Below, in pieces: positions 2,509-53,007 of a stretch of DNA of 64,000 nt. The stretch's first letter is position 1. Each line of letters begins with the position of its first letter. Made by a program: the position numbers and the translations under genes. This DNA comes from Fluviicola sp. (GTDB taxonomy: Bacteria; Bacteroidota; Bacteroidia; Flavobacteriales_D; Crocinitomicaceae), in contig NZ_JBCNJT010000001.1 of NCBI RefSeq assembly GCF_039596395.1, forward strand, positions 1,461,315 through 1,525,314, read 5' to 3'. Below the pieces are notes generated by a model, which saw only the letters and a program-made list of their open reading frames with translations, ran no database searches and was not told where the DNA came from.

Positions 2509-3444
2509 CTAATTGTTCAAATATTTAAAATAACTCTTTTGATTCCATCGCCTGAAGGAACTTACAATAAAATAAGTTCCTCCTAATAAGAGAAATATTG
2601 AAAAAAACATATCAATCAGATCTGAATCCCACACTCGCCTATAAAAAACATCAATTCGTATTTCTTTTTTTGATTTAATATCTCTACAAACTAACTTATA
2701 TGTTTTTGATTTTGAAAAGAACAGCTTATACCCTATATAATCATCATTAAGTTTTTCAAGAATAGAGTCATTGCATTCTGAGTGAATAATTTCGACACTA
2801 CTAATTTTATTTCCAGTTCTTGAATTAAACATTTCTGAGTTATATGCTGTCATTTCGGGACCGTCATAAAATGTAAAAAGTCCAAACAACATAGTAAATG
2901 ATCCCATTACTAAACGGCTGATAATATCCTTTGTCTTTGATTTATCAAATTCGGTAATTTTTGGCAGGTTAGGAATACGATGGAAAAAACTTAGTTTAAT
3001 GTCATCTCTTTTTTGACCAACAAAAGAATTGTTATTGTTGATGATTCCCTCGAATTCAACCCATTCTTTGTCTTTTAATAATCCAAATTCAAGTATTACC
3101 TTTTCTTTTTTTATAGTACTTGTAATTTCAACGCCCTTACTAGTATTTGTTATCTTAAAATCCAACCAGATAATTTCATCAGCAGAAATCTCAATTTTAT
3201 TTACTTTTTCAGTCAGATCTTTGTTGCCAAGACATAACACATGTCCTTTTATAAAAGTAATCTTATCATTTATCTCTACATCATTGTATTTAATTGTAAG
3301 ATTTTCAAAATTTTTAAGTAAGTCATCTTGAAGGTTGATTTGCTTATCCTTTATGAAATAAAGTTTAGTTTTTTTACTCCTAACAAAAATAATAACACCA
3401 GGAATTCCAAGTAGTACAGTAATTATTAACGTGATTATCTCCAT
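2509..3444 (-). CDS. Hypothetical AT-rich membrane protein
   Basis: A 311-residue protein that I do not recognise. Three hydrophobic segments are visible: residues about 3-22 (TLIITVLLGIPGVIIFV), about 175-192 (LVMGSFTMLFGLFTFY) and about 280-298 (FFSIFLLLGGTYFIV). Between the first two is a roughly 150-residue polar, beta-rich region, and about 85 residues separate the second and third. It therefore looks like a membrane protein with two soluble domains. Base composition is clearly more AT-rich than the neighbouring genes, with many AAA, ATT and AAT codons. The gene is bracketed by inverted CCACAGAGG repeats. Both suggest recent acquisition. No partner gene is adjacent. Confidence 0.65.
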   Translation of the reverse strand: MEIITLIITVLLGIPGVIIFVRSKKTKLYFIKDKQINLQDDLLKNFENLTIKYNDVEINDKITFIKGHVLCLGNKDLTEKVNKIEISADEIIWLDFKITNTSKGVEITSTIKKEKVILEFGLLKDKEWVEFEGIINNNNSFVGQKRDDIKLSFFHRIPNLPKITEFDKSKTKDIISRLVMGSFTMLFGLFTFYDGPEMTAYNSEMFNSRTGNKISSVEIIHSECNDSILEKLNDDYIGYKLFFSKSKTYKLVCRDIKSKKEIRIDVFYRRVWDSDLIDMFFSIFLLLGGTYFIVSSFRRWNQKSYFKYLNN

Positions 3445-50217: not shown

Positions 50218-50324
50218 CTCAATGACTTAAGGGTTTAAGGGATCAAAGAGTTCAAATAAAGTAGTGATCAGTCACGACTGATCACTACGTTCAAATGGTT
50301 TAAAGGTCCAAACGTTTAAACCGG
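50218..50324. repeat. GTTCAAA repeats surrounding a GTAG palindrome
   Basis: AAGGGTTTAAGGGATCAAAG-type words flank a hairpin at 50261-50288: GTAGTGATCAGTC and its exact inverse GACTGATCACTAC separated by AC. The region lies between convergent genes and probably terminates both. The hairpin foot GTAG/CTAC matches the palindromes near 5.1 and 6.9 kb. Confidence 0.7.
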
Positions 50325-51251
50325 GCAAATTGTTGTTCCGGTGCACGTTCCCTGCATGTACCGGTATCCGCAGCTTGCATGGTGTGCATCACCGATAGCT
50401 GATAAATCAAAGGTTACGATCTTTTCAGTGATCTCTGCCATGCGGACAGGCAATAAAAGTTCTGCTTCAATAGCTGTGTATGGTTTCGCTACTGCACTTG
50501 AATCGATGTACATGAGACTTCCTACCGGCTGGTAATCGTATGCTTTCATCTCATTGAGCTTGTTTACGAAGGAAACAGGTAAGTCCGGAATGGTCTCCAA
50601 AATATCAATAAACTCGCTGTCGGGCGGCAAAAGCGGTACAATGTCCAGATAATTTTCATAGCGTACATCATTCGGGAACGTAGCATTATATACATTCACA
50701 AATTCGGTATTTCCGCAATTCGGGCCTGCAAAGGTGATTGTCTGAGTAATATTCAAACCGTAAGCATTCTTAAAATACATGGCTGCTATCGGGGCAATTC
50801 CACCACCTTTACTATGTCCTGTGATATAAATCGGCAGTGTTCCTTCCGGATCGAGCGCCTTGATCGCATCAACAATTCCACCTCTCAGTAAACCTAAAGC
50901 AAACAAAAATCCTTCATGCACTTCACCCGGAAGTTCTATATTACTGGTAGTAGGTGCCATGAAGTCTTCCAGCCAATCAAAAAAGGAGTCCCAATTTAAA
51001 GCAGGAGGAAGGGTTCCCCGAAATGCGACAATAATACTGTTTGCTGTTTGTCCGACAAGAGCCGCTTCGATCTGCTCTGCGGTTACCACATAAGGATCTA
51101 CGACGAAACCAATGGCATCGTACTGATTTTGAAAAGGAGAATCCGTTCCCAGCGGATTGTACTGTCCGCTAGGATCAGTGGGAGTGATGGCATACGTGGA
51201 TGCTGCGGCGCACAGCAGTTGGCATGGTAGCGATAATGTACTCATAATCAA
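50316..51251 (-). CDS. Class 3 lipase family protein without clear signal peptide
   Basis: A 311-residue alpha/beta hydrolase. The oxyanion region is SIIVAFRGTLPP, the nucleophile Ser147 lies in ITGHSKGGGIAP, Asp203 in YENYLDIVPLLP, and a candidate catalytic His in GDAHHASCGYRYM. These are the features of lipase class 3 (fungal lipase-like). The N-terminus (MIMSTLSLPCQLLCAAASTY) has no basic residue before its weakly hydrophobic part, so a standard signal peptide is doubtful. It lies 119 bp downstream of the candidate eCIS payload gene on the same strand, and could be a second payload or an unrelated lipase. Confidence 0.88.
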   Translation of the reverse strand: MIMSTLSLPCQLLCAAASTYAITPTDPSGQYNPLGTDSPFQNQYDAIGFVVDPYVVTAEQIEAALVGQTANSIIVAFRGTLPPALNWDSFFDWLEDFMAPTTSNIELPGEVHEGFLFALGLLRGGIVDAIKALDPEGTLPIYITGHSKGGGIAPIAAMYFKNAYGLNITQTITFAGPNCGNTEFVNVYNATFPNDVRYENYLDIVPLLPPDSEFIDILETIPDLPVSFVNKLNEMKAYDYQPVGSLMYIDSSAVAKPYTAIEAELLLPVRMAEITEKIVTFDLSAIGDAHHASCGYRYMQGTCTGTTICPV

Positions 51252-51370
51252 TAGTGTTTAGTTTGAACTGTTTTTTGAGGTAAAAGTAGCATCAAAGCCG
51301 AACATGGAACCAGATAAAAATATCTGATTTTTAAGACCAGCTCAGATTCGCATCTCCCGGGTTCTGAAAC

Positions 51371-52852
51371 TTATCTTCCTCTTAAAACTCCCATGACGGC
51401 CAGGAACATTTCGGGATCTTTAATAGCTATCCGATACGCTTTATCCCGATCGTGGAATACTTCAAATGCGGTGGAAACCACTTCTGTGCTTCCGTGCTCA
51501 TAATACTTGACGTTATAGCCGAAATAACCACCCATTTCTCCGGAAGCCGGCAAGTCGGTATCATAGCGCATTTCATCGCTTGAAATAACATAAGGAATCG
51601 TGAACGGGAAAATACGTTTCAAATCTTTGCCCTGTGACCTGTTGCGCATCAATTGCTGCAATTTGATCCAGCGCGGAGCTTCCGAATTGTTTTCCAGGTG
51701 GTGCCCGAATTCATGCATAATAATCCCTTTCGTTGCAACATATTTCCCCAGGTGGATCACTCCGCTGTTCTGATGAGCGCGCGTAAACCATCCGTCAACC
51801 TGCACATGGGCAGGGCCGGCGTGATTTAAAACAGCCGGTGATACGATGTCCCTGATCTGGGTCCAGGCATCCCTTACTTTCGGACGAATCCAGGTATCAT
51901 CTTCATCGAAATCATTTTCCTGAGCGTCTAAAATTCCATCGTTGAGTGTTCTGCCGTTCCACACATCTTCATCATCCATTTGTTCCGCAAGGGGAATGCG
52001 GTAAATGAAATTCATCAGTTTTGGCTTGAGGTAGTTTTCCAAAATCCGCGAGGCGATATCCAAACTTACATTCGGGCTGTTCATTGTTTCCCGGATTGCC
52101 ACCGCCAGCCTGAAATAGATTTCTTCCTGGGAAGCAGACTGGAAAGCTTCACTCAGTACCCGGTTCGCAATACTCGTCCCGATATCCAGGTCTGTTTGAT
52201 CCGGCCCCAGCAAACCGGCTTTCGGAGTTTCATACTGAACACCTTCATCGCCTTCAAAACCAAAATCGAAATTCTGATCCTGATGAACCAGGTTTTTCAG
52301 GTATTCTTCGGCTTTTGCCTGATTCAGGACTTTCTGGTAAAAATATTTGGCTACGTTGGCCGCATTACTGTTTCCCCTAAGCTTTTTCTTAATTACCGAA
52401 TCAAAGTACCCCGCCTCTTCAGCTTCAATGCTTTTTCCCAGTACCTTAGATTCGTTCACCGCTTCCCGAACCAATGCGATAGCGCCGTTTACTGCATTAT
52501 TCAGACCGTCATTAAACGCAGGAAGTTGCTGTATCCCGAAATCGTGATCGCGCGCCTGCCGGTATAATCTCAACGCTATTACATCCGGATCAACAGCCTC
52601 TTCTATATCACTCTTGGTTTCCCGTCCGTGATCGGTATCCTTGCCAGCACGGTCAACGAGCATTTCCGACAAGGGCTTGGGTTTTACAAATTGAACAGGA
52701 GCAGTCTGTGCCGAATCCTGCAGTTTTTTCAGCTGAAGTGTTTCAGAGCGATTATCTTCAAACGAAACTGCTCCGTCTTTCTTTTTTTTAGAACCAAAAG
52801 AACTTTCCTGAACAGGAGCGGCAGTGCGTGTTTTTCGTTGTTTCGAGTGCAT
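51371..52852 (-). CDS. Zinc metalloprotease-like protein with eCIS-payload-like N-terminus
   Basis: A 493-residue protein without signal peptide. Residues about 1-60 are basic and disordered, with SFEDNRSETLQLKKLQDSAQ at 30-49, resembling the DNRPEA-x2-QRKLQ-type motif found at the N-terminus of many eCIS-associated toxins. A helical middle region follows (about 85-290). The C-terminal part holds the zincin motif HEFGHHLE at 380-387 with candidate third ligand Glu in EHGSTEVVSTAFE (near 457 or 464). It could be a metalloprotease toxin carried by a contractile injection device. No eCIS structural gene is in this window. Confidence 0.7.
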   Translation of the reverse strand: MHSKQRKTRTAAPVQESSFGSKKKKDGAVSFEDNRSETLQLKKLQDSAQTAPVQFVKPKPLSEMLVDRAGKDTDHGRETKSDIEEAVDPDVIALRLYRQARDHDFGIQQLPAFNDGLNNAVNGAIALVREAVNESKVLGKSIEAEEAGYFDSVIKKKLRGNSNAANVAKYFYQKVLNQAKAEEYLKNLVHQDQNFDFGFEGDEGVQYETPKAGLLGPDQTDLDIGTSIANRVLSEAFQSASQEEIYFRLAVAIRETMNSPNVSLDIASRILENYLKPKLMNFIYRIPLAEQMDDEDVWNGRTLNDGILDAQENDFDEDDTWIRPKVRDAWTQIRDIVSPAVLNHAGPAHVQVDGWFTRAHQNSGVIHLGKYVATKGIIMHEFGHHLENNSEAPRWIKLQQLMRNRSQGKDLKRIFPFTIPYVISSDEMRYDTDLPASGEMGGYFGYNVKYYEHGSTEVVSTAFEVFHDRDKAYRIAIKDPEMFLAVMGVLRGR

Positions 52853-53007
52853 AGTTTACAGGTTTGTCAGTCTAAATATAACCAAAAAAGCACATGAAAA
52901 ACGTTCAACATGCTGAATAAAAAGGAATTAAATCTTTCGTTCAAAAGCGTTTAATTTTTGATCGTAAAAATGTTATTTTTGTTTAGAAACGCTTTTTACA
53001 ACAGGTT

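Follow-up and report, generated by a model that had tools for sequence, protein, structure and literature searches.

An ORF of the window likely encodes an orphan cargo protein of an extracellular contractile injection system (eCIS) whose genes lie 1.29 Mb away on the same contig, and the zincin at its C-terminus is probably active. The window is the whole stretch of 64,000 nucleotides that was analysed and corresponds to bases 1461315-1525314 of contig C1, in a genome of 4.64 Mb and five contigs. In the first-pass annotation of the window, this ORF had been read as an eCIS payload with a basic N-terminal motif and a C-terminal HEFGHHLE zincin motif. Both motifs were confirmed, at residues 30-49 and 380-387, and the payload reading is now supported by the presence of an eCIS locus in the genome and by an N-terminus and a zincin that are shared with eCIS_core proteins.

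Table 1. Features of the candidate payload gene and its insertion (window coordinates).
Feature	Position	Strand	Description or basis
Orphan eCIS payload gene, candidate	51371..52852	-	ATG ORF, 493 aa: leader, middle region, C-terminal zincin
N-terminal leader, residues 1-56	52685..52852	-	Leader-only matches in G012 and G005; leave-out profile
Leader core F-E-D-N-R-S-E-T-L-Q-L-K-K-L-Q, residues 31-45	52718..52762	-	20-row leader alignment
Middle region, residues 57-306	51935..52684	-	Without family match
C-terminal zincin domain, residues 307-493	51374..51934	-	Phage Rb1, 41 viral contigs, eCIS_core proteins of G736 and G627
HEFGHHLE, residues 380-387, HExxHxxE zinc-binding and catalytic motif	51692..51715	-	43-row alignment
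TEVVS, residues 456-460; E457 is the probable third zinc ligand	51473..51487	-	43-row alignment; description in PMC5512222
Accessory segment, about 1.6 kb, holding just the payload gene	51338..52967	.	Absent from G005 and G012

The net charge of the protein is +7 at residues 1-60 versus -19 for the rest, and residues 6-21 carry a charge of +2; SFEDNRSETLQLKKLQDSAQ spans residues 30-49. Over residues 1-35, the Kyte-Doolittle sum is -51.1, which is hydrophilic; a hydropathy of -36.9 is given for Pdp1 in PMC11297309, where the calculation may differ from ours. These values agree with the hydrophilic, slightly basic N-terminal signal expected of eCIS cargo. A Sec signal peptide was not apparent by eye. 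Searches of Pfam (E <= 1), NCBIfam and PADLOC returned no match to the protein, including its middle region and its protease, and neither PF13699/DUF4157 (eCIS_core; Pfam, E <= 1) nor PF14891 (Peptidase_M91) was matched. A weak PHROG match over residues 132-187 (E = 0.013) was taken as chance. Within its own genome, the protein matches just itself at E <= 10, and a promoter scan found 6 sites against a mean of 8.2 in shuffles, i.e., no excess.

A leader shared by dispersed proteins

The N-terminal motif SFEDNRSETLQLKKLQ recurs at the starts of otherwise unrelated toxin-like proteins. When the whole protein was searched against 14 genomes of the genus (our own included), a full-length relative with 54% identity was found in one of them, G004. 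The matches in G012 and G005 were limited to residues 15-56 and 4-56, respectively, at the start of proteins with other C-termini. A 20-row alignment of the leader shows that D33 and R35 are invariant and that Q45 is nearly invariant. To a leave-out profile, from which the window protein and its orthologue had been removed, the window protein scores E = 6.5e-8 with the search space set to 50,000, and a stricter 13-row profile with five further rows removed gives E = 1.1e-6. The first-pass annotation had expected the N-terminus to resemble those of payloads from eCIS-bearing strains, and the N-terminal profile search indeed matched eCIS_core and toxin-domain proteins of eCIS-bearing relatives.

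The leave-out profile was also run (E <= 10) on 530 ORFs, taken from the window, from 80 kb around the eCIS locus and from the loci at which the genome encodes its four other leader ORFs. It reported just the five leader ORFs of the genome and no other ORF in the window or in the 80 kb around the eCIS locus; the weakest of the five, L066, had E values of 0.068 and 0.013 in two leave-out profiles. With the 20-row profile, the genome has five leader matches, three of which had supplied profile rows. The four other leader ORFs are dispersed: L064 (C1:1272134) encodes 373 aa, L066 (C1:624539) has a calpain-type peptidase domain (PF00648), L033/L056 (C1:1861409) encodes 317 aa with an Stv-domain match, and L041/L047 (C2:1461923) encodes a leader followed by eCIS_core.

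Pfam was run on 20 chosen leader ORFs, including weak ones such as L042 (leader E = 0.675). The eCIS_core domain was found in 8 of the 20, and other ORFs carry Peptidase_M91, ADP-ribosyltransferase, GH-E nuclease or calpain-type domains; L038 and L062 have endonuclease matches under Pfam's cut-off. No Pfam match was obtained for L022, L026 and L064, and the matches of L033, L043 and L050 (Stv, SabA_adhesion below cut-off and DUF294, respectively) are not toxin-like by name. As judged from sequence, the pattern of this set is that of a shared address on interchangeable warheads. One protein that was also observed, L032:958-3072, carries a leader, eCIS_core and a deaminase domain that is APOBEC/SNAD4-like, and DNRPEA occurs in it a second time, downstream.

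The zincin domain and its relatives

The protease had originally been described as one that could not be placed in a named family. This description stands insofar as Pfam and NCBIfam provide no name, but by sequence the window protein joins a zincin clade of phage proteins. Two weak PHROG matches (E = 0.0046 and 0.014) pointed to phages and later proved meaningful. A tblastn search with the C-terminal 186 residues matched one phage record of 50,697, that of Rb1 (34.8% identity over query residues 52-184, E = 1e-6), in which the gene is annotated as an M12B-like peptidase and the preceding gene as an internal head protein. Twelve plasmid records matched weakly, with E values from 0.003 to 0.8 among the ten matches listed. 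A two-sequence profile of the zincin domain had no match among the viral contigs, and the profile with four phage/plasmid rows added matched 41 viral contigs. All four of these phage/plasmid relatives match PHROGs 20397, 2299, 33618 and 8561, and two of them match PHROG 19443 (minor head protein). Of the 41 viral loci, 19 contain a relative of the DarB-like/SNF2 neighbours.

An alignment of 43 rows was built from 37 of the 41 viral loci, the four phage/plasmid proteins, the window protein and its orthologue; L088, L089, L090 and L107 were excluded, as they look like near-duplicates. R358, H380, E381, H384, Y446, Y451, E457 and D479 are invariant in all 43 rows, and E387, E427 and S460 occur in 42. 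HExxH alone is a weak motif, and the conservation across the 43 rows adds support. Because the window protein retains all of the residues conserved in the clade, we consider its zincin to be probably catalytically active. Sequence searches of solved structures produced matches at E 0.5 or worse, which were unrelated or limited to HExxH. According to PMC5512222, zincin-like peptidases are the commonest domain of the polyvalent proteins that phages and plasmids inject with their DNA, and in these peptidases HExxH lies on one helix and a zinc-binding glutamate on the next. By analogy, E457 would fit the role of this glutamate, and the motif and context indicate that the PHROG zincins are probably the MPTase clade described in that paper. 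The phage zincins of PHROGs 20397, 33618, 2299, 8561 and 19443 have the signature HExxHxxE ... E ... Y..KxY ... TEVxS ... D in common with the window protein. Unlike the window protein, they have no leader match and stand in a phage or plasmid context; the leader was absent at E <= 1 from 3661 ORFs of viral and plasmid loci.

Among genome contigs, a search with the single protein found no match, and a domain profile search found the orthologue in the metagenome-assembled genome (MAG) Flavobacteriales bacterium UBA5871 and one Kiritimatiellia protein. The latter (L068:2814-8480, in a MAG) is a large multidomain protein of 1888 aa with an apparent signal peptide, by eye secreted, and contains a distant HExxH stretch (31% identity, query residues 23-106).

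In 395 genomes of the phylum, a two-row zincin profile matched our own genome only. In 395 genomes of the class, a 23-row profile (E <= 1e-4) matched three, namely our own genome, G627 and G736. The proteins G736 L130:9125-11437 and G627 L129:10175-12289 are eCIS_core (PF13699) proteins with a C-terminal zincin that is 30% and 32% identical, respectively, to that of the window protein; BLASTP with the whole window protein gave E = 2e-13 for G736 and 7e-14 for G627, each in a single comparison. The G736 protein starts with the leader (profile E = 7.3e-7), and its gene lies 5.6 kb from an AAA+ gene that follows CIS_TMP (19.5 kb examined). Between the zincin and AAA+ genes are a DUF4280 gene and three leader ORFs (E = 9.2e-7, 2.9e-5 and 0.013). 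In G627, the leader was seen by eye only and was not found by the profile at E <= 1, and the 19.5 kb around the zincin gene encode no other protein similar to the eCIS proteins of L005, the eCIS locus of our own genome. We consider the G736 protein, in which the leader, eCIS_core and the same zincin are joined a few kilobases from CIS_TMP and AAA+, to be the decisive link to eCIS payloads.

These two proteins are homologous to the window protein in their C-terminal zincin and resemble it in their DNR-type leader (in G627 by eye). However, they carry eCIS_core after the leader and the window protein does not, and the G736 gene is near the tape-measure and AAA+ genes. The eCIS cargo proteins Cgo1 and Cgo2 of AlgoCIS (Algoriphagus machipongonensis; PMC8894135) are similar by description, with a disordered N-terminus and a variable C-terminus, and Cgo1 has two HExxH motifs. 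According to the same source, they have a central DUF4157 (eCIS_core) and are encoded within the eCIS cluster, whereas the window protein lacks eCIS_core and is encoded at a distance. A protein of G001 (L024) is like the window protein in that it combines a leader with a metallopeptidase and has no eCIS_core match, but it belongs to a different family and matches PF14891.

Even for an eCIS cargo, the zincin could be a self-processing peptidase, which would release or mature the protein's own leader and middle region, and not the toxic activity. PMC5512222 describes peptidases of conflict systems as autoproteolytic, as in Photorhabdus virulence cassettes, or as effectors, and a middle region that Pfam and NCBIfam leave unexplained would suit the former role. 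However, no domain follows the zincin in the window protein, its orthologue or either eCIS_core relative, and this final position is where other leader proteins carry toxin-like domains; no other enzymatic domain was found that could be released. We therefore consider self-processing unlikely and prefer the reading of the zincin as the probable toxic activity of the cargo.

An accessory insertion between a lipase and a histidine-kinase gene

The full-length gene occurs in 2 of the 14 genus genomes, our own included. In G005 and G012, the flanking lipase and histidine-kinase genes adjoin each other; their DNA can be aligned with the window as far as 51337/51334, and the alignment resumes at 52968/53008. 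Therefore, a segment of about 1.6 kb that holds just the payload gene is absent there: the payload gene is an accessory insertion, and its site is empty in these two congeners. In G006, G009 and G001, the lipase is present, the payload gene is absent and another neighbour takes the place of the kinase; therefore, these three genomes show no clean empty site. The orthologue in the MAG UBA5871 likewise has the lipase nearby, separated from it by a 585-aa ORF. Its protein equals that of G004, and the two are therefore not independent. An old presence followed by losses and a repeated gain at one place are both possible.

Outside eCIS, the relatives of the zincin are phage and plasmid proteins, several of them encoded beside DarB-like/SNF2 proteins, and the gene might accordingly be taken for a minor-head or polyvalent-type protein left by a decayed prophage. 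We consider this improbable and rejected it: the payload gene is not phage- or plasmid-encoded and was inserted singly between two genes that adjoin each other in G005 and G012, no leader was found at E <= 1 among the 3661 ORFs of viral and plasmid loci, and the same domain is found in two eCIS_core proteins. An insertion that codes for an orphan cargo protein remains the preferred reading. A further gene of ordinary size would not fit into the inserted segment; the payload therefore arrived without an immunity gene of its own, which mildly favours a target that the producer lacks.

The class 3 lipase gene (window 50316-51251) adjoins the payload gene on the same strand. It is present in 7 of the 14 genus genomes, our own included, and five of these seven are without the payload gene, which indicates that the lipase is probably unrelated backbone. 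Two leader-like ORFs with a DNRAST/DKRAST motif, L076:846-3170 (774 aa) and L079:11532-13748 (738 aa), were observed 6-11 kb from the lipase in two congeners. The lipase region may be a hot spot for payloads.

The eCIS locus and proposed delivery of the cargo

The absence of eCIS genes from the genome had been named as an outcome that would speak against the payload reading. The genome search instead found sheath, tube, spike, gp25, CIS_TMP and AAA+ genes. Locus L005 encodes matches to the sheath, CIS_tube, spike, gp25, CIS_TMP (tape measure), AAA+ ATPase and eCIS_core (PF13699), as well as a WHH/colicin-DNase-like protein, and a 99-aa PAAR-like tip ORF, named by eye, is present at the locus. 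A Phage_T4_gp19 search of the genome identified two adjacent tube genes at C1:235838-236699 and had no match in any of 14 control genomes. The payload gene is neither in the eCIS operon nor just downstream of it but 1.29 Mb from the tape-measure gene, which bears out its earlier description as an orphan. According to PMC8213781, eCIS operons carry toxin genes at their 3' ends, and DUF4157 is a core domain; a position near the operon is a tendency of eCIS toxins and no requirement.

Two payload-like genes lie within the eCIS locus itself (L005:1964-2494 and 2510-3328). Their proteins have no DNR motif and were not reported by the leave-out leader profile, and they share another N-terminal pattern, QAKAKNQANEGSILQAYKKGTAQL and QPKAQNQAEEGTILQAYKTSTSQI, respectively, which is perhaps a second leader type. 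Because these in-locus proteins are without the DNR motif, loading here may depend on other signals besides the leader, or on a different signal altogether.

We propose that recognition of the leader would take place while the particle is being assembled and would probably involve the AAA+ ATPase of L005, for which AAA+-aided loading by Pvc15, as described in PMC11495950, offers an analogy. The payload protein would then be loaded into the tube lumen and released on contraction of the sheath, and the zincin would cut a protein of the target cell. In this mechanism, zinc would be held by H380, H384 and E457, and E381 would act as the general base.

More broadly, the DNR(P/S)E..QxKxQ leader may be a loading tag for dispersed orphan toxins, which would then need no eCIS_core, and one of whose warheads is the zincin of phage virion and polyvalent proteins, such that two phage-derived ejection machines share one enzyme module. 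We hold the chances of this wider proposal to be about even. Because a simple profile picks up the leader even at a great distance from the operon, dispersed payloads become findable, and experiments on loading have a concrete motif to address; moreover, an unnamed clade of phage zincins is linked to a second ejection machine. PMC11297309 reports that eCIS signal peptides showed no specific conserved sequence. Literature searches with DNRPEA and variant strings returned nothing relevant among the matches listed; most subscription journals lie outside their coverage, and this result does not establish absence from print. For effectors encoded elsewhere in the genome, the matches listed were mainly work on type VI secretion systems (T6SS).

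The leader and eCIS genes also occur together across genomes. A profile of six N-termini matched 9 of the 14 genus genomes at E <= 0.01, and all nine have CIS_TMP. CIS_TMP is present in 11 of the 14, and the three genomes without it have no leader match even at E <= 1 (9/11 versus 0/3, P = 0.027). The eCIS-positive genomes without a leader match at E <= 0.01 are G002 (best E = 0.287) and G011 (none at E <= 1). The profile rows came in part from five of these nine matching genomes, which makes the association partly circular, and we therefore relied on a test at the level of the phylum. The 20-row leader profile, with rows from the genus only, was searched against 395 genomes sampled across the phylum, and CIS_TMP was searched in 395 genomes drawn by the same rule; the handles agree, and the two were taken as the same set. 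The leader was found in 9 of the 395 genomes (E <= 0.01) and CIS_TMP in 75. With our own genome left out, CIS_TMP occurs in 6 of 8 leader genomes versus 68 of 386 others (Fisher P = 7.5e-4, uncorrected for relatedness). The two exceptions are G338, in which the leader match contains stop codons, and G510, in which the ORF looks by eye like a leader with eCIS_core.

A toxin with such a leader could also be delivered by another route, for example, by a T6SS of Bacteroidota or by lysis. DUF4157, which 8 of the 20 leader proteins carry, sometimes occurs in T6SS effectors (PMC11297309), and a search for PF17541 as a test for T6SS had no match in our genome and none in the controls either. Nevertheless, the genome has an eCIS locus, and leader ORFs lie in or near the eCIS loci of other genomes, and we consider delivery by another route very improbable. 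We give still less credence to, and rejected, the idea of a cytoplasmic or housekeeping peptidase of the ordinary kind whose N-terminus resembles the leader by chance: a signal peptide is not apparent by eye and no named family matches, as such an enzyme would allow, but the patchy presence of the full-length gene (two genus genomes, with an empty site in two others), the leader score and the eCIS_core relatives do not fit it.

In the seven phylum genomes with both the leader and CIS_TMP, 8 of the 18 leader matches are located <= 20 kb from a CIS_TMP gene. The remaining 10, including the five of our own genome, are not within 20 kb, and G290 and G480 have no leader match within this distance. 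Leader ORFs lie 3.4-18 kb from CIS_TMP in G561, G372, G487 and G404. The tape-measure ORF exceeds 900 aa in six of the seven genomes, with G561 as the exception, and this length suggests that the leader goes with one eCIS subtype.
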